A stretch of 20,907 bases of DNA from a virus: IMG/VR virus record IMGVR_UViG_3300009159_000397, positions 1 to 20,907 of that record; one strand, given 5' to 3'. Positions 1,516 through 19,307 of this stretch are shown here, piece by piece. The first letter of the stretch is position 1; each line of letters starts with the position of its first letter. The notes beneath the pieces were generated by a model, which saw nothing but the letters and a program-made list of their open reading frames with translations, made no database searches and was not told the origin of the DNA. The position numbers were made by a program, and so were the translations under genes.

Positions 1516-2583
1516 ATGAAAATCTGTGTGTATACAATAGCGAAGAATGAAAGCAGCTTTATTGAACGGTGGTACCATTCAGCAAAAGATGCTGATGAGT
1601 TGCTTGTTTTTGATACTGGCTCCACAGATGAAACAGTTAAAGTCTGTGAACAACTCGGCATTAAAGTTTTTGTCGGCTGCGTAAACCCATGGAGATTCGA
1701 CACGGCCCGTAATACGGCTTTGTCATTAATCTCTTCAGATGTAGATTACTGTATTTCGCTAGACGCAGACGAAGTCTTGGTCGATGGTTGGCGTGAACAT
1801 ATGGAGGATCTAGAAGATAATGTTACACGGCCAAGATACAAATATACTTGGTCATGGAATCCAGATGGCAGCGAAGGTCTTGTTTATGGCGGAGACAAAA
1901 TACATTCGAGGAATGGTTATAGATGGAAGCATCCGGTGCATGAGGTTTTAACAAAAACTCCAGAATCACCAGAAGTGCAGAGTTGGATAGGGCTACAGAT
2001 ACATCATTTCCCTGATTCAGAAAAAAGTAGATCACAATATGGCCCCATGCTAGAGCTTGCGGCACTTGAAGATCCTAAGGATGATCGTATAGCGTTCTAC
2101 TATGGTAGAGAGCTCGTATACTATAATGAGCTAGATAAGGCATATGATCAGCTTAAACATCACCTCAGTTTACCTACAGCATTATGGGGTCCAGAGAGAG
2201 CCGCTTCAAAAAGGCTAATAGCAAAATGTAGACCTGAAGAAGCCGAATACTGGCTATTGTCTGCAGCTTCTGAGGCAGCAGATAGAAGAGAGCCGTGGGT
2301 GGACCTTGCGAATTATTACTATGAGAAGTCGGAATGGATACAGTGTTTCTCTTCGGCTTTGCGGGCAATATCAATCCAAGAAAAACCACTAGAATACATA
2401 TGTGACGCAGATGCTTGGGGATCAAAACCATATGATTTAGCCGCTATAGCTTCTTACAGGTTAGGTAATTCAGATTGCTTGGCTTATGGGAAAATAGCCG
2501 TTACTATAGACCCAGAAGACGCTAGGCTAATCAGCAACTTAGAGCATTATGAGTCATTCGTGAATGGACTGGAAGAAGAATAA
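1516..2583 (+). CDS. Family-2-type glycosyltransferase with TPR-like C-terminal part
   Basis: A 355-residue protein. The N-terminal ~200 residues match the GT-A fold of family 2: an opening beta strand (MKICVYTIAKNE), nucleotide-sugar residues in DTGSTDET (33-40), and a DADE metal-binding motif at 83-86, then an RWKHPVHE motif around 135-145 seen in this subgroup. Residues ~200-355 are helical with TPR-like spacing (repeated tyrosine/alanine-rich helices). It should move a sugar from an activated donor to a protein or glycan acceptor in the cytoplasm; the acceptor is unknown. It sits between fibre genes, so a virion protein is a plausible acceptor. It has its own promoter and no ribosome site. 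An unusual place for an enzyme, but such genes are known in phage structural regions. Confidence 0.8.
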   Translation: MKICVYTIAKNESSFIERWYHSAKDADELLVFDTGSTDETVKVCEQLGIKVFVGCVNPWRFDTARNTALSLISSDVDYCISLDADEVLVDGWREHMEDLEDNVTRPRYKYTWSWNPDGSEGLVYGGDKIHSRNGYRWKHPVHEVLTKTPESPEVQSWIGLQIHHFPDSEKSRSQYGPMLELAALEDPKDDRIAFYYGRELVYYNELDKAYDQLKHHLSLPTALWGPERAASKRLIAKCRPEEAEYWLLSAASEAADRREPWVDLANYYYEKSEWIQCFSSALRAISIQEKPLEYICDADAWGSKPYDLAAIASYRLGNSDCLAYGKIAVTIDPEDARLISNLEHYESFVNGLEEE

Positions 2584-2584
2584 A

Positions 2585-2917
2585 ATGGCAGTAGGCGATA
2601 GAAACGAAAAGAGACTTGCTGGCCCATATAGTCTGGGGACCACAAATAGTGTAGTGGGTACGGTTCCTGCATCCCGACTTTGGGTCACAAAGCAAATTAC
2701 TATAACTAACACAAACTCGGTGGATGCTACCTTTAGGTTAGCTATTGGGACATCGGTAACTGCGGCTAATTGTTTTTTCTACAACCTTCCAATTGCCGCC
2801 AATGACACTATAGTATTTGATACTTCTTTAGTGTTTACTGCCGCAGAAGCTATATACGGAATTGCAGATAGATCTGGAATAAATGTAATTATAACAGGAT
2901 GGGAAAAAGAAGTTTAA
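2585..2917 (+). CDS. Small beta-sandwich virion protein (fibre-associated candidate)
   Basis: 110 residues from the ATG at 2585, one base after the stop of the glycosyltransferase. An ATG at 2564 in the same frame would add seven lysine-rich residues and overlap the upstream gene; I prefer 2585 because the conserved-looking part starts at MAVGDRNEKRLAG. The body has alternating hydrophobic strands (VTKQITITNTNS, TFRLAIGTSV, IVFDTSLVF, INVIITGWE) like the small beta-sandwich proteins often found next to phage fibres. Function is inferred from fold pattern and neighbours only. The stop overlaps the next start as TAATG, which suggests translational coupling. Confidence 0.6.
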   Translation: MAVGDRNEKRLAGPYSLGTTNSVVGTVPASRLWVTKQITITNTNSVDATFRLAIGTSVTAANCFFYNLPIAANDTIVFDTSLVFTAAEAIYGIADRSGINVIITGWEKEV

Positions 2918-3357
2918 TGCCCATAGATAGCGCTAAGACAAAATATTCATATTTACGCGACTTATTGGGTAGACCTTTTTTCTCTGTAGCGAATGAAGCT
3001 GGCTCTACTGTTACTGCGGGCAATAAAGCCACGTTCAATGTTACGTTCGCAGACCCAGACGATGTATGGAGTAGTGCAAATAACAGGTTTACGGCACCCG
3101 CAGATGGTTACTATGAATTTAATATTAACTTACTCAGCGCCTCTGCTGACAACACCGCATTCACATATGAGTTCAGGAAAAATGGCAGTTCTATGACTCT
3201 CGGAACTTACCCTAGGGGTTATTCGCTAAAGCAATATATGGCAAACTCAGCTAGTGGCATAATTAGCCTTAGTGAAAACGACTACATTGAGATATGGATT
3301 ACCGGTGGTACAATGCATTCGTATAATTGTTTTTTCAGTGGGAAAAGAGTTAGTTAA
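2917..3357 (+). CDS. C1q-like jelly-roll virion protein
   Basis: 146 residues from the ATG at 2917, which overlaps the preceding TAA by one base (TAATG); an in-frame ATG at 2899 is also possible. The sequence shows the C1q/TNF-like signature: FTAPADGYYEFNINLL around residues 55-70, a FRKNG turn near residue 90, and a closing SGIISLSENDYIEIW strand pair with a final FSGKRV strand. C1q-like domains form trimeric jelly rolls and are used as heads of phage fibres and spikes. Likely a small surface or fibre-tip protein that binds carbohydrate or a partner fibre; the ligand is unknown. It ends in another TAATG overlap with the S74 protein, so the three genes are translated as a chain. Confidence 0.65.
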   Translation: MPIDSAKTKYSYLRDLLGRPFFSVANEAGSTVTAGNKATFNVTFADPDDVWSSANNRFTAPADGYYEFNINLLSASADNTAFTYEFRKNGSSMTLGTYPRGYSLKQYMANSASGIISLSENDYIEIWITGGTMHSYNCFFSGKRVS

Positions 3358-4214
3358 TGGCCCTATCTAACGCTGTAGCCAATTCAATACTTAAACCCGG
3401 CGTATGTACTTCTGCTACAAGGCCCGCAAACCCTTACGAGGGTCAGTTTATATATGAAACAGATACAGACTACATGCTGGTTTACAGCGGTTCTGCATGG
3501 ATAACTCCTTCTGGCTCTGTTTCCGCCCCTACGACTAATGCCCAGTTAGCCAATAAGCTTTATGTGGACGGAAAACATACTACAGCATATGATAGGGGTT
3601 CGCTTGGTGTTACTAATGCTGCAACAGCACAAACAGCAGCGAACAATGCCGCAACAACCGCCAACGCTGCAATGGCCAGATCGGGAGGCACATTCACTGG
3701 AGCCGTTAACATGGGTAGCCAGGCGTTATATCTTAGGAGCGGCTTTAACAGCGAGAATTATCTGTATTGGAATTCTTCAGGAAATTCCGCCGAATTAGCT
3801 GGCTACACATCTGTAAGCATATACGTAGTCAGCGGCGCACAACTGTATTCGTTCAAAAACAACGGTAATGCTTCTGCTCCTGGTACTTGGTTAGATAACT
3901 CTTCTATAAGATTTAAAGATAACGTAGAGTCACTCAGCAGTGAAAAGGTTTCGGATTCTATAGAAAGGCTGAGGCCAGTATCTTATAAGTATAAGAAAGA
4001 ACACAACACGGATGATAGCGAGCGGATAGGCCTAATAGCTGAAGAAGTAGCCGAAATCTTCCCTGAGGTTGTTGAGTACGACGAAGAGGGGATACCTTGT
4101 GGTATAGCTTATTCTCGTCTTTCTGTCATAGCTATAGCCGAGATAAAAAGTCTACGTGACAGACTACTCGATCTAGAAAGGAAATTTGATGAACTATCTA
4201 GACATGACGATTGA
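3357..4214 (+). CDS. Tail spike/fibre with C-terminal S74 intramolecular chaperone
   Basis: 285 residues. Residues ~1-60 resemble fibre heads (PANPYEGQFIYETDT, YSGSAWI), ~80-125 contain an Ala/Asn-rich helix and the TFTGAVNMGSQ motif usual in tail fibres, and ~182-285 form an endosialidase-type intramolecular chaperone (peptidase S74). The chaperone shows SSIRFKDN with Ser182 and Lys187 spaced like the catalytic Ser/Lys pair of the family, then RPVSYKYK, GLIAEEV, PEVV, and a final coiled coil (IKSLRDRLLDLERKFDEL). By family knowledge it drives trimer folding and then cleaves itself off before the serine, leaving a mature protein of about 181 residues. The mature part is short, so it is a small spike. 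Overlaps the next gene by 26 bases. Confidence 0.85.
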   Translation: MALSNAVANSILKPGVCTSATRPANPYEGQFIYETDTDYMLVYSGSAWITPSGSVSAPTTNAQLANKLYVDGKHTTAYDRGSLGVTNAATAQTAANNAATTANAAMARSGGTFTGAVNMGSQALYLRSGFNSENYLYWNSSGNSAELAGYTSVSIYVVSGAQLYSFKNNGNASAPGTWLDNSSIRFKDNVESLSSEKVSDSIERLRPVSYKYKKEHNTDDSERIGLIAEEVAEIFPEVVEYDEEGIPCGIAYSRLSVIAIAEIKSLRDRLLDLERKFDELSRHDD

Positions 4215-4851
4215 TACCCCGGGTTCCTTCAGACTGTGTAAGGCTGTCAAGATATCGGATTATGCTCGGAATCTAGACAGGGTTCGTTGCGATAGTCATG
4301 GATGGGGGCCGGTAGCTATAGATTGGACTCCTGAATACGGAAAACTTTTTGGAACAGATGCTATAGAAAATATTTTTAACCTCAGAAATTTTGATATACT
4401 CGTAGATTGTGCGCCTTATTTCTATATCACATTTAACGAGATCGTTGAGCATGACACTCCTACTCATGGGCCAGAATCTTCTGAGTTGCAGGAGAAAGCT
4501 TGGCTAGAAAGGCCGGAAGCGGTTGCCCCAACGCTTGGTCATTTAATGAGGTTAATTATAGAATGGGCTTTAGTATATGAAGATCCATTCTATAATAGTG
4601 AAGCGTCTGCTAGGATAAGCCATCAGGCCTTGGATCTTCTTGGTATCGACAATTCGGTGAAGTCCGCTATAATGTCAGCATACCCAGAAATGCCGGTTGC
4701 TAGATATCTCCGCGGTGACGTAAATGCAAAAGATTTTCCAATTGAAGGAGATATGACTGCTGAAGTTAAAGACTTTATGCAGGTCATGCTATCCGATTTT
4801 GCGAAAAGACCAGCTAACCCTGATATGTGGCAAAAATTTTATGAACTATGA
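4189..4851 (+). CDS. Hypothetical protein, 220 residues
   Basis: The ATG at 4189 is chosen because AAAGGA (4177-4182) lies six bases before it; a TTG at 4186 and an ATG at 4204 are in the same frame. It starts inside the end of the S74 gene. The product is mixed alpha/beta, soluble, Trp/Tyr-rich, without signal peptide or membrane segment. Residues ~120-175 look helical (HLMRLIIEWALVYEDPFY, ARISHQALDLLGI). I do not recognise it. Its place at the end of the fibre cluster suggests a fibre assembly or virion protein, but an unrelated role is equally possible. Confidence 0.7.
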   Translation: MNYLDMTIDTPGSFRLCKAVKISDYARNLDRVRCDSHGWGPVAIDWTPEYGKLFGTDAIENIFNLRNFDILVDCAPYFYITFNEIVEHDTPTHGPESSELQEKAWLERPEAVAPTLGHLMRLIIEWALVYEDPFYNSEASARISHQALDLLGIDNSVKSAIMSAYPEMPVARYLRGDVNAKDFPIEGDMTAEVKDFMQVMLSDFAKRPANPDMWQKFYEL

Positions 4852-4864
4852 ATGGAGGTGAATA

Positions 4865-5020
4865 ATGTCAAATGAAATAGGAAAAATTATTATTAATATC
4901 GATGAAGATTCAGTAACTTGGGAAACAGAATTAGAAGTACCTGAAGTAATTTTTTGGCTTGAGGTTACAAAGTCTATGGTCATCAGCCGGAATGTACTAG
5001 GTGGCACGAAGGGTGAATGA
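4865..5020 (+). CDS. Small hypothetical protein, 51 residues
   Basis: ATG at 4865 follows GGAGGTG (4854-4860), one of the strongest ribosome sites in the window, just after the stop of the upstream gene, and reads 51 codons to TGA. The product starts MSNEIGKIIINIDEDSVTWE; it is acidic, with two likely strands and a hydrophobic segment VIFWLEV that is too short and charged to be a membrane anchor. The strong ribosome site argues for a real, well-translated gene, the last one before the terminator at 5053. Family not recognised. Confidence 0.6.
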   Translation: MSNEIGKIIINIDEDSVTWETELEVPEVIFWLEVTKSMVISRNVLGGTKGE

Positions 5021-5052
5021 CAATTATATAGGTTTATCTATTCTAATTATTT

Positions 5053-5074
5053 TAAGCCTACTTGTGTAGGCTTA
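5053..5074 (+). terminator. Intrinsic terminator after the first fibre cluster
   Basis: Perfect 9-bp stem TAAGCCTAC/GTAGGCTTA with a TTGT loop, followed by a T-rich but interrupted tail (TTTGGTTTAT). The stem ends two bases before the promoter candidate that serves the portal gene, so it separates two transcription units. Confidence 0.65.
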
Positions 5075-5075
5075 T

Positions 5076-5104
5076 TTGGTTTATGTTACTAACATGACTA
5101 TAGT
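5076..5104 (+). promoter_or_regulatory. Promoter candidate for the portal gene
   Basis: TTGGTT (5076-5081, 3 of 6) and TATAGT (5099-5104, 5 of 6) spaced by 17 bases, directly after the terminator at 5053 and 24 bases before the portal ATG. The -35 box is weak; the call rests on the -10 box, the exact spacing and the position. Confidence 0.4.
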
Positions 5105-5128
5105 CGTTTTTTATAGGTTGGAGTTTTA

Positions 5129-6655
5129 ATGCGCTTAAACGATTTTCTGCCATTCCAGAATGCACCTGGTAAAACCCCTAAAAAAGTAGCATCAATACTG
5201 CCCCTAGACGACCAAAAAGGTCTAGCTAAGGCTTTCAGGGTTGCCGCATTAGCTTTAGGTTTCCAGAATTTTTCGACGAGATCCTATACTGGGGACACTT
5301 ATGAGCTTCCGCCATTTGACTTTGATAGGATTATACAGGCTATAGATACAGACTCTTATGCTAAGCAGGCAACCTCTAAATATAAAGAGCTTTTCTGGAA
5401 AGAGGGTTGGAATATAGTTTCGGAAAACTCTGTAGCACGCGGATACCTTCTCCAGAGGGTAGACTTTATGGAAGTAGCTATGAAGAAGTCTTTTCAGGAT
5501 TTCTTGGTCGATGTAGCTGACCAGCTGGTGAAGTTTGGCAATGTATTCATAGCTAAATCCAGAGGCCCTTTACAGGAGTATTTCCCGGGGCGACTCTATC
5601 CCCCCGAAAATAAAAATCCAGTCATTGGTTACTATATAATTCCAACAGAGCGCGTAGAGATCATGCGTAACAAAAATAATAAAGTCTTATGGTACAGACA
5701 GAGAACAGATATGACTGGACTCGGTTCTACGGATCAGTCTCCAAGATGGAACGCAGATGATGTAATACACATATCTACAGATAAGAAACCGGGAAGAGTT
5801 TTTGGAACTCCATTTATGGTTTCTGCTATGGATGACATCATAGCCTTAAGGCAGATAGAGGAAGATATACAGAACCTCGTCCATAGAGAATTGTTCCCCC
5901 TATACAAGTTTAAGGTTGGAACAGACGATCAGCCGGCGACCGACGAAGAGCTAGATAAGGCCGCCAACGAGATAGAAGGACTAAGGTCTGAAGGTGCACT
6001 AATCATGTCTAATAGGCATGATGTGGACGTTCTTGGCGCTAATGGTAATGCACTAGATGCGTCGAAATATCTAGATCATTTTAAGGAACGCGTAGCGATA
6101 GGTCTCGGTGTTTATCCTCACCATTTAGGTATGACATCCAATGCATCGCAAGCGATGACAGACCGCTTAGACATCGCTCTTTACGACAAGATCAAGGAGT
6201 ACCAGAGAAAGTTCGAAGATGCTATGAGGCTTCATGTATTCAACGAATTGCTTTTGGAGGGCGGTTTTGATCCGTATACCAACCCAGAGTTTGGCGGGAC
6301 GTCAGATAGGTGCTATTTCAAGTTTAATGAAATAGATTCAGATACTGAAGTCAAGAAGGGCGCGTATATCATACAGAAAGTTTTAGCTGGTATACAAACG
6401 GTGCCAGAAGGTAGACTTGAGCTGGGCATGAAGCCTGAGATGGATCTAGAGGCAATATCTCCAAATGCGAATTCCGGATTGTCCACTGGTGCATCTAAGA
6501 GTGCAGAACCAAAAAATAATAGAAAAGGTTCCGACAACATCATAAGGCCCGCGAACCAGTATGGCACCAAAACGTCTCCAGATATAAGGAGATCAGAAAA
6601 TTTTGATCTTATAAATGAGATCGCTAGCCTTATTGATGATATGATAGAGGAATAA
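5129..6655 (+). CDS. Portal protein
   Basis: 508 residues, the usual size of phage portal proteins. It should form the ring at the unique capsid vertex through which DNA is packaged and to which the neck is attached. Visible family features are the stem/wing region with a WNADDVIHIS strand near residues 207-216, the following RVFGTPFM and DIIALRQIEEDI helix, and the GVYPHHLGM segment near 328 with the helix that carries TDRLDIALYDKIKEYQRKF. The C-terminal ~60 residues are low in complexity and probably disordered. Ribosome site TTGGAG precedes the ATG. It opens the head module, ahead of the protease and capsid genes, which is the usual order. Confidence 0.88.
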   Translation: MRLNDFLPFQNAPGKTPKKVASILPLDDQKGLAKAFRVAALALGFQNFSTRSYTGDTYELPPFDFDRIIQAIDTDSYAKQATSKYKELFWKEGWNIVSENSVARGYLLQRVDFMEVAMKKSFQDFLVDVADQLVKFGNVFIAKSRGPLQEYFPGRLYPPENKNPVIGYYIIPTERVEIMRNKNNKVLWYRQRTDMTGLGSTDQSPRWNADDVIHISTDKKPGRVFGTPFMVSAMDDIIALRQIEEDIQNLVHRELFPLYKFKVGTDDQPATDEELDKAANEIEGLRSEGALIMSNRHDVDVLGANGNALDASKYLDHFKERVAIGLGVYPHHLGMTSNASQAMTDRLDIALYDKIKEYQRKFEDAMRLHVFNELLLEGGFDPYTNPEFGGTSDRCYFKFNEIDSDTEVKKGAYIIQKVLAGIQTVPEGRLELGMKPEMDLEAISPNANSGLSTGASKSAEPKNNRKGSDNIIRPANQYGTKTSPDIRRSENFDLINEIASLIDDMIEE

Positions 6656-6691
6656 GTTAATATAAGCAGCAGAATATTCGATAGAGGTTTC

Positions 6692-6946
6692 ATGAACAAC
6701 AGTAGACCAAGTTTTACTCTTAATTCTAATAAGAGTGTAGGTTTTAAAAATGCAGTAACAAATGGGCAGACAAGGTTAGCCTTGGAGTACGCCGAACAGA
6801 TTATTTCCGAGTTGTGCGATAGGGTAAATTTGCTCGAATCTGTTTCAGTCGAAGAAGGGGACGCAACCTTGCCTAAGGCAACTGCTGAAGCTGTAGCGGA
6901 AGAGAAAAAAGTAGTAAGAGTCAAGAAGACTTCAGAAGAAGTCTAG
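6692..6946 (+). CDS. Small hypothetical protein, 84 residues
   Basis: ATG at 6692 follows AGAGG with normal spacing. Residues ~1-25 are polar (MNNSRPSFTLNSNKS), ~28-52 are a likely helix (TRLALEYAEQIISELCDRV), and the last ~30 residues are a charged tail (EEKKVVRVKK) that is probably unfolded. Located between portal and the second glycosyltransferase; no family recognised. A small head-assembly or internal virion protein would suit the place, but this is a guess. Confidence 0.6.
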   Translation: MNNSRPSFTLNSNKSVGFKNAVTNGQTRLALEYAEQIISELCDRVNLLESVSVEEGDATLPKATAEAVAEEKKVVRVKKTSEEV

Positions 6947-6996
6947 TGGCAGTCGTTGTTTCCTCTTTTAGTTAGCTTTCTTTTCGACGGGTGTTT

Positions 6997-7767
6997 ATGA
7001 AGATATTAATTGGTAGCCCAATTTATCAAAGAGCTTGGGTTTTAAAAGACTGGTTTAGATTCATAGAAAATCAAACCATGCCATTATCGGATATCGGTTT
7101 TATATTCGAGTTGGGCCCTAACGATGACGATACCCATGAAATAATTTGGCAATGGCACAGAGATCATCCAGAGGTTGCTTTCTTCGATGCTACCATAAGA
7201 GAAGATATCAACCATACTACGCATCCTGACGGCCATAGAACGTGGACGCAGGATGCATACCATAAAATGGTGGAGTTGAGAAACTCTCTCCTAGAGCGGG
7301 TTAACTGCGTTAAGCCCGAAAAGTATCTATCATTAGATTCAGATTTATTCTTAGAAGATCCGCAAACTTTAGAGAAGCTCTACCACATGCTCAATAGAGA
7401 TGGGATAGATGCTATATCACCATTATCTTATATGTATCAGAAGGACATTAGGTTTCCAAGTGTTATGACTTGGATGGATGGGGCTGGCAACAGGGCTACA
7501 AGGATGCTTGCGGATTACAAAATAGGTGAAACATTTCGTGCAGATATTATTATGGCCGCAGTAATGATGAATCCTGTAGTGTATCAAAATTGCAGGTATG
7601 CTTGGCACCCCCAAGGCGAAGACCTTGGTTGGTCTGCGGAATGTGCAAAGCAAAATTTTAATCTGTACTGCGCTTCCGACATATATGTTCCCCACATAAT
7701 GCACAAGTGGATGCTGGATCAATATTATGCTATTGGCGATCCTAGAAAAGAACAAGCATACAATTAA
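6997..7767 (+). CDS. Probable glycosyltransferase (GT-A fold)
   Basis: 256 residues from the ATG at 6997; a GTG at 6991 in the same frame would add two. It begins with a beta strand (MKILIGSPIYQRA) and carries a DSD metal/nucleotide-sugar motif at 114-116 (YLSLDSDLFL) and an acidic HPQGEDLGW motif at ~204-212 that resembles the catalytic-base region of several GT families. No membrane segment or signal peptide, so cytoplasmic. It should transfer a sugar to an unknown acceptor. It is distant from the enzyme at 1516-2583, with no obvious sequence alignment outside the GT motifs. Lying between portal and protease genes, it may modify a capsid or fibre protein, or a host glycan. Some doubt about exact family. 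Confidence 0.68.
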   Translation: MKILIGSPIYQRAWVLKDWFRFIENQTMPLSDIGFIFELGPNDDDTHEIIWQWHRDHPEVAFFDATIREDINHTTHPDGHRTWTQDAYHKMVELRNSLLERVNCVKPEKYLSLDSDLFLEDPQTLEKLYHMLNRDGIDAISPLSYMYQKDIRFPSVMTWMDGAGNRATRMLADYKIGETFRADIIMAAVMMNPVVYQNCRYAWHPQGEDLGWSAECAKQNFNLYCASDIYVPHIMHKWMLDQYYAIGDPRKEQAYN

Positions 7768-11278: not shown

Positions 11279-12328
11279 ATGGCAAAACCAATAGAAGAAC
11301 TCCTCGCGAATTATGACGCCTGGGAATCTGTACTAACTGAGGACGGTTTCATCGATGATGACCGCAGAGTAACAGTAAAGGAAGCTTTTGCTTCTCCTGA
11401 TGCTCCTATCCTTTTCCCCAAAGTTATTTCTCGCACTCTAAAGGAAGCGGCAGAACCACAATTACTGGTCACTCCTCTTCTTTCGGTTGTGCGTCTTGGG
11501 AAGGGTCGTTCATTAGAATTCCCCGCAGTTAATGCAATCCAGGCAGATGAAATTCCCGAAGGACAAGAATACCCGGAACAAGCTCTTGCATTTGCAAAGC
11601 AAATCGAAGGTAAAGTCAGCAAAAAAGGTGTGAAGGTAGCCTTCACCGAAGAAGTTATCGCAGATAGCCTCTGGGACATTGTTGGTCTTCACGTTCGTGC
11701 CGCTGGTCGTGCAATGGCTCGTCTCAAGGAGCAGATTGCTCTTTCGAGATTCGCTGGAGCTGCTACGGTAGTTTTCGACAATGATGATGCTGCTATCGAT
11801 AACACCACTGGTCTTGGATCTACTGGCGCAGCCAATAAGACCATTACCTGGGATGACGTTATCGAAATGGCTGCTGTACTCATGGCAGAAAATCATGTCC
11901 CAACTGACTTTATTCTACACCCACTCATGTGGAGCGTTTTCGCTCGTAACTACGAGTTCCGTATGGATAATCAGCCCTGGCCAGCATGGAGCATGCGTCC
12001 CACCTCAAGAGAGCAAGCCGCTAACGCTACTGCACCTCTTGGTATGAACGTCCTTGTCTCTCCTTTTGTTAGCTTTACCGCTAAGAGTGGAGCTACAGCG
12101 GCTAAGTCAGATGTTTTCCTCATCGACCGTAATGAGGTTGGCGTACTCCTTGTCAAGGAAGATATGTCAACCGATGGATGGAACGACCCAAGTCGCGACA
12201 TTCAAGCTCTTAAGATGAAAGAGCGTTACGACATCATCATGATGGGTGACGGTGAAGGCATCACTGCAGCTAAGAATGTCAGCCTTGCTAGAGCATACGA
12301 AGTTGAGCTTAACAAGACTGTAGCTTGA
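11279..12328 (+). CDS. Major capsid protein (HK97-type fold expected)
   Basis: 349 residues, a usual size for this family, with AGGAGG before the ATG. It follows the protease/scaffold and decoration genes, as capsid genes do. Features: a helical N-terminal arm (EELLANYDAWES), a hydrophobic/Pro segment with FPKVISRTLKEA, the VSKKGVKVAFTEEVIADS stretch typical of the start of the P domain and spine helix, a long helix (LHVRAAGRAMARLKEQIAL), an A-domain stretch (DFILHPLMWSVFARN), and a final strand (FLIDRNEVGVLLVKED). Of 17 arginines 13 use CGT/CGC and four AGA, and isoleucine uses ATA only once, a sign of high expression. A strong terminator follows at 12354. No decisive motif exists for this family, so position and pattern carry the call. 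Confidence 0.85.
   Translation: MAKPIEELLANYDAWESVLTEDGFIDDDRRVTVKEAFASPDAPILFPKVISRTLKEAAEPQLLVTPLLSVVRLGKGRSLEFPAVNAIQADEIPEGQEYPEQALAFAKQIEGKVSKKGVKVAFTEEVIADSLWDIVGLHVRAAGRAMARLKEQIALSRFAGAATVVFDNDDAAIDNTTGLGSTGAANKTITWDDVIEMAAVLMAENHVPTDFILHPLMWSVFARNYEFRMDNQPWPAWSMRPTSREQAANATAPLGMNVLVSPFVSFTAKSGATAAKSDVFLIDRNEVGVLLVKEDMSTDGWNDPSRDIQALKMKERYDIIMMGDGEGITAAKNVSLARAYEVELNKTVA

Positions 12329-16802: not shown

Positions 16803-19299
<2,497 letters not shown>

Positions 19300-19307
<8 letters not shown>

Follow-up and report, generated by a model that had tools for sequence, protein, structure and literature searches.

Phage glycosyltransferases are usually explained by protection of the phage DNA or by changes to the host surface. 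Enzymes such as GmaR, SunS and ThuS act on protein or peptide acceptors, and collagens of animals are routinely modified. In C. difficile, SgtA, a soluble protein of 358 amino acids with a GT-A domain followed by a C-terminal TPR domain, is encoded directly upstream of bclA3 and in vitro transfers beta-O-GlcNAc onto Thr residues of peptides from the collagen region (Gly-Pro-Thr) of BclA3 (PMC7157674). For mycobacteriophages, phage-encoded enzymes that O-glycosylate their own capsid and/or tail are described (Freeman et al. 2023, as relayed in PMC12619734 and PMC11652166). Here we analyse two glycosyltransferase genes, GT1 (1516-2583, + strand) and GT2 (6997-7767, + strand), in the IMG/VR record IMGVR_UViG_3300009159_000397, a metagenomic fragment of 20,907 bases from a lake-type bacterial virus, with 20 called genes, all on the + strand (hereafter the window).

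Three lines of evidence, namely a domain layout like that of SgtA, a same-strand linkage to collagen-like genes and absence from Thr-poor collagen loci, make it probable that GT1 O-glycosylates Thr residues of the collagen-like fibres of the phage. The first-pass annotation, arguing by analogy with the Bacillus exosporium protein BclA, had proposed that the phage sugar-coats its own fibres or capsid. The comparative evidence supports this for GT1 and the fibres, but GT2 belongs to the head module and is not associated with collagen. The BclA analogy proved apt, with the C. difficile SgtA/BclA3 pair being the tighter match. Virion glycosylation is known from mycobacteriophages; glycosylation of collagen-like phage fibres was not found described in the literature searched. 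Nor did that search, with most subscription papers outside it, reveal a link between phage glycosyltransferases and phage collagens; for phages E7 and F5, glycosyltransferases have been noted, with a proposed role in DNA or cell wall modification, and a variable island with collagen-like genes has been noted as a separate feature (PMC10202952).

GT1 combines a GT-A glycosyltransferase domain with C-terminal TPR helices

GT1 (355 amino acids) matched Pfam Glycos_transf_2 (7.8e-12) and PHROG 13126 (6e-108). Its LDADE motif is intact (DADE at residues 83-86, followed by HE at 142-143), and D83, D85 and E86 are invariant across 43 relatives. In the AlphaFold model, which had a predicted local distance difference test (pLDDT) score of 96.0, a GT-A domain (approximately residues 1-170) is followed by TPR helices (172-354). 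A profile of the GT1 family matched GmaR (1.7e-11), SunS (1.8e-7) and, over positions 189-349, many TPR proteins, while a fold search placed SunS/ThuS on top (6e-16) and also found the TPR domain of OGT. With the SunS equivalog model TIGR04195 of NCBIfam, GT1 scored 26 bits, the cut-off being 350. It has no membrane segment (maximum KD19 of 0.85). The family is large, with matches in 449 IMG/VR stretches and 405 in bacterial genomes.

The first-pass annotation had recognized both enzymes by their short acidic motifs. A bare DxD is not evidence of a glycosyltransferase, since 12 of the 20 open reading frames of the window carry one. The motifs of GT1 and GT2 are nevertheless real and far above chance, and both assignments hold, that of GT1 on the matches and invariant residues given above and that of GT2 on invariant family motifs and a confident GT-A model.

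Upstream of GT1, positions 1479-1516 contain a promoter-like sequence, TTGACT-18-TATCAT, which ends 8 bases before the ATG and is not accompanied by a Shine-Dalgarno sequence; the arrangement is similar in contig L003. The GT1 transcript is possibly leaderless, but chance alone is expected to give one such promoter-like site in the region.

GT1 is linked to collagen-like genes in phages and bacteria

To compare gene neighbourhoods, we searched all six reading frames of each locus for collagen runs of at least 10 triplets. Redundancy was removed at 95% identity, and only loci with 3 kb or more of upstream and 1 kb or more of downstream sequence were retained. Of 42 non-redundant phage (IMG/VR) GT1 loci, 33 had a collagen run at a distance of no more than 5 kb, always on the same strand and in 30 cases upstream. 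Bacterial relatives of GT1, some of which are located among chromosomal housekeeping genes, gave 29 of 45, with a median Thr fraction at the Y position of 0.57. The frequencies in the control sets were much lower: 1/41 for GT2 (Fisher p 1e-13 against phage GT1), 3/19 for the capsid gene (p 8e-6) and 0/7 for an unrelated glycosyltransferase of the isolated actinophage DSL-LC01 (p 1e-4). Co-occurrence with collagen fibres, suggested earlier as a check for both genes, is thus seen for GT1 and not for GT2.

The reverse comparison started from the collagens. Loci were picked by the pattern GPTGPTGPT or, as Thr-poor sets, by GPKGDKGD or GPQ, and GT1 was counted at 100 bits or more. GT1 was present at 17 of 120 GPT loci and at none of 220 Thr-poor loci (p 9e-9). 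This agrees with the report that E. coli prophage collagens, in which GPK, GPQ and GPA are common triplets, are unglycosylated when produced in E. coli (PMC3368898). An overlap of 1-4 bp between the preceding gene and GT1 occurs in several phages. The DSL-LC01 cluster consists of two collagen genes, a hypothetical gene, an annotated tryptophan halogenase and then GT1; the halogenase gene (L001, 13433-15004) lies two genes past the collagen genes and shares a 4-base overlap with GT1.

Several observations weigh against a role of GT1 in collagen glycosylation. Thr occupies the Y position at about 0.55-0.6 also in phage collagens without GT1, which are equally Thr-rich, so Thr at this position has further causes; within the GPT set, the comparison of GT1-near with GT1-far collagens gave p 0.11. 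The Thr content of the collagens, considered as a proof of GT1 action, was rejected as not discriminating. In the stretch covered, 103 of the 120 GPT loci lack GT1, hence GPT richness by itself does not imply its presence. Conversely, 9 phage and 16 bacterial GT1 loci have no collagen within 5 kb. The virion blocks in which the jumbo phages PaBG and Y3 encode distant homologues of GT1 have no annotated collagen, indicating that the acceptor may vary and may be broader than collagen. Finally, 28 loci of the 33-locus phage subset fall into one single-linkage group, which means that the loci outnumber the independent events. Better support than the phage locus count is therefore given by the bacterial relatives and by the control collagen patterns. 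Groups defined by gene sharing that included GPT-pattern loci (14/15 and 18/19 with collagen) were not used as evidence, because those loci had been selected for collagen.

Two observations concern GT1 homologues found apart from collagen genes. Lacrimispora/Clostridium-type genomes (L416, L417, L422, L431, L432, L439, L444 and L453) carry tandem copies of the GT1 family that lack a collagen within 5 kb. Near bacterial GT1 copies, a search for a flagellin motif gave none. The PaBG and Y3 homologues (L584, 10001-11275; L585, 8046-9218) lie near prohead protease genes.

GT2 is a core gene of the head module

The open reading frame of GT2 begins at a GTG at 6991, whereas the family alignment starts at the ATG at 6997. 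Searches of Pfam, PHROG and PDB with the single sequence returned nothing informative. An alignment of 25 family members revealed two invariant motifs, S-L-D115-S-D117 and H-x-x-G-E209-D210-x-G-W, and the AlphaFold model (pLDDT 93.9) has a GT-A fold. The family profile matched human procollagen galactosyltransferase 1 (COLGALT1) at 4.1e-7 over about 98 residues that span its DxD, with no other convincing protein match. By fold, the best matches were COLGALT1 (5.9e-17, TM 0.72), LH3 and mimivirus R699, followed by Mnn9. Anp1/GT62 (PF03452) matched 18 of the 25 members, at best with 6.1e-5, the window member itself not being among them. There was no match to Glyco_transf_25, and the single domain of GT2 leaves no second, GT25, domain. 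By profile and predicted fold, GT2 is distantly related to the COLGALT1 N-terminal domain and possibly to Anp1/GT62.

Against the first-pass placement of GT2 beside collagen fibres, the gene is flanked by the portal gene, a small gene and a protease-like gene. It lies between the portal gene and the homologue of the 7829 gene in all 65 distinct loci that contain both. The GT2 family comprises 474 stretches. In isolated phages no match to GT2 was found; between the portal gene and the next head gene, the nearest relatives by capsid, KLEB27-3 and MTATph1, lack a GT2-matching gene. GT2 is a core gene that is fixed in the head module independently of collagen. Given this fixed place and the few Gly-X-Thr runs found in related genomes (see below), collagen is unlikely to be the acceptor of GT2 in most carriers. 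GT2 may instead glycosylate a head protein, an assignment to which we give slightly less than an even chance; its neighbours in the head module, the 10499 protein, the capsid protein and the 7829 protein, are the natural candidates for the acceptor.

Alternative roles of the two enzymes

One alternative is that GT1, GT2 or both alter the host surface (wall polysaccharide, teichoic acid or lipoglycan), thereby blocking superinfection, and lie near the fibres as part of a host-recognition island. Such a role is suggested for phage glycosyltransferases in the literature, including those of the Nanopelagicales phages E7 and F5 (PMC10202952) and of pelagimyophages (PMC7029224). The annotation of PHROG 13126 and of the PaBG gene is beta-1,4 or LOS glucosyltransferase, and TarP, TarS and RmlT were among the lower fold matches of both models. 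However, membrane segments are absent, the TPR layout of GT1 is that of protein glycosyltransferases, and its best relatives by sequence and fold have protein or peptide acceptors. The collagen linkage, seen also in bacterial relatives, is missing from the other phage glycosyltransferase that we used as a control (0/7), and GT2 lies inside the head module, outside the fibre island. Taken together, these data make the host-surface role unlikely. Glucosylation of the phage DNA against host nucleases, a classic role of phage glycosyltransferases that was also cited for E7 and F5, is very improbable: the best matches included nothing similar to DNA glycosyltransferases, both genes are part of the virion block, and across phages and bacteria GT1 follows a protein, collagen.

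Another possibility is that both enzymes modify the collagen-like fibres, with GT2 acting as a COLGALT1-like collagen galactosyltransferase. The three collagen-like genes of the window would fit this idea, as would the fact that the closest solved relatives of GT2 are collagen glycosyltransferases (COLGALT1, LH3 and mimivirus R699). COLGALT1, however, acts on hydroxylysine, and a lysyl hydroxylase was not detected in the window. In addition to the near absence of collagen within 5 kb of GT2 loci, we searched 18 large contigs (up to 206 kb) from GT2/capsid loci and found a Gly-X-Thr run in only four and GT1 in one, while GT2 kept its place in every head module. The synteny and the whole-contig searches led us to reject a single collagen system for GT2, and a shared action on collagen is a little less likely than the host-surface role.

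Proposed mechanism of virion glycosylation

For GT1, our preferred interpretation is that of a cytoplasmic peptide O-glycosyltransferase. The GT-A domain would use a nucleotide sugar, perhaps UDP-GlcNAc or a similar donor, while the C-terminal TPR domain would grip the acceptor chain, so that the collagen-like fibres made by the phage itself receive the sugar on Thr (or Ser) of their Gly-X-Thr triplets. We infer that the transfer would precede folding of the triple helix and incorporation of the fibres into the virion. In fibres devoid of hydroxyproline the glycan may add stiffness and protection, and it could also mask the fibres or tune their binding. GT2 would be a separate head-assembly enzyme with a different virion protein, most likely one in the head, as its acceptor.

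If fibre glycosylation by GT1 is true, it bears on the stability of collagen without hydroxyproline and on host recognition. The linkage provides a large enzyme family with a concrete candidate for a protein acceptor. GT2, an apparently universal gene of an abundant group of aquatic phages, predicts a glycosylated head protein.

Gene content of the window and the host

The window encodes a portal protein, a protease-like protein, a capsid protein, a tail sheath protein (14155) and several fibres, three of which are collagen-like; all features below are on the + strand. The first collagen-like gene (3-428) is represented by its 3' part only, as it extends beyond the window; it contains two GPT triplets, and its C-terminal domain resembles that of the 16803-19307 fibre. 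The second (454-1275, 273 amino acids), the neighbour of GT1 and a candidate acceptor, has a collagen stretch at 505-645 with 13 triplets in runs and Thr in 54% of the Y positions, but only four GPT triplets in the entire protein. The earlier description of the neighbouring fibres as full of Gly-Pro-Thr is therefore overstated locally, while it fits the third gene (16803-19307; Pfam Collagen 8.8e-9), another candidate acceptor of GT1. This long fibre has 63 triplets in runs, 19 GPT, 17 GAT and 45 Gly-X-Thr sites, and lies at distances of 14 kb (GT1) and 9 kb (GT2) from the two enzyme genes. Its two collagen stretches (16938-17162 and 18498-18995) flank a GDSL/SGNH hydrolase domain (Lipase_GDSL_2, 3.3e-12), which may deacylate host surface glycans.

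The start of a gene for a small protein (2564-2917), conserved in contigs L002, L003 and L004, overlaps the end of GT1, which makes co-transcription of the two genes probable. It is followed by a C1q-like protein resembling the C terminus of BclA, of a trimeric head-piece type (2899-3357; Pfam C1q 5.9e-5, BclA_C 0.009), and by a tail fibre with a self-cleaving S74 chaperone domain (3357-4214; Peptidase_S74 1.2e-14). The portal gene (5129-6655) matched Phage_portal (1.4e-11) and PHROG 9232 (1.3e-47). Downstream of GT2, the 7829-10471 gene, a neighbour by which the head module is defined, encodes a head maturation protease-like protein with a TUDOR-like domain (Hva1_TUDOR 1.8e-6); the PHROG match to the protease function is only 0.027, and synteny was used as further evidence. 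The 10499-11248 gene, located between the protease-like and capsid genes, encodes a protein for which the family search gave no match; with 63-96% identity across relatives, it is conserved almost to the level of the capsid protein (11279-12328; PHROG 3922 9.8e-27, Phage_capsid_4 2.3e-15).

The closest relative of the window is the 190-kb contig L002, whose portal and capsid proteins are 85-95% identical to those of the window. The host is likely an actinobacterium, as judged from WhiB genes in L002 and in five of nine further large relatives.

Modification of phage collagens beyond GT1

Among 110 neighbours of GPT collagens without GT1 (L089-L208), Pfam searches identified nine 2OG-Fe(II) oxygenases, three family-2 glycosyltransferases, one PLOD glycosyltransferase domain and one GT25. 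Among the 25 commonest families of 110 neighbours of GPKGD collagens there was no oxygenase, and the only glycosyltransferase matches were of group 1, with one member each. The enzymes encoded beside GPT collagens suggest that modification of these collagens extends beyond GT1, and hydroxylation by 2OG-Fe(II) oxygenases is possible.

A broader hypothesis, to which we hold only tentatively and with less conviction than to a head acceptor of GT2, is that these actinobacterial myophages have two independent systems of virion glycosylation. In this scheme a mobile, SgtA-like GT1 would act on Thr of collagen tail fibres, and a clade-defining, COLGALT1-like GT2 in the head operon would modify a capsid-associated acceptor, a step without which the head could not mature. 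GPT-type phage collagens more broadly might then be routinely modified, by glycosyltransferases and 2OG-Fe(II) oxygenases.

Comparison with known systems

In terms of published architecture, on which our comparison is based, GT1 closely resembles SgtA: the two proteins are of nearly the same length (355 and 358 amino acids), have an N-terminal GT-A and a C-terminal TPR domain, and are encoded adjacent to a collagen-like gene rich in Gly-X-Thr. SgtA comes from a spore-former and targets the spore coat, whereas GT1 is phage-encoded and the collagens beside it are virion fibres; the linkage of GT1 thus connects phage fibres with the collagen glycosylation known in bacterial spores. By profile and fold, GT1 belongs to the same GT-A subgroup as the flagellin O-GlcNAc transferase GmaR, with which it shares the DxD and an aligned H-E motif, and the peptide S-glycosyltransferases SunS and ThuS. 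It differs from these enzymes in that it scores far under the SunS cut-off and that no flagellin or glycocin genes were seen nearby. The resemblance of GT2 to COLGALT1 covers the DxD region in the profile match and the entire domain in the fold match, but GT2 is a single domain of 257 amino acids, with neither a GT25 domain nor a link to collagen genes. In the mycobacteriophages, as far as the accounts in PMC12619734 and PMC11652166 relay it, the glycosylated sites are the capsid and tail-tube C-termini, in contrast to the collagen-like fibres that we propose as the acceptor of GT1.

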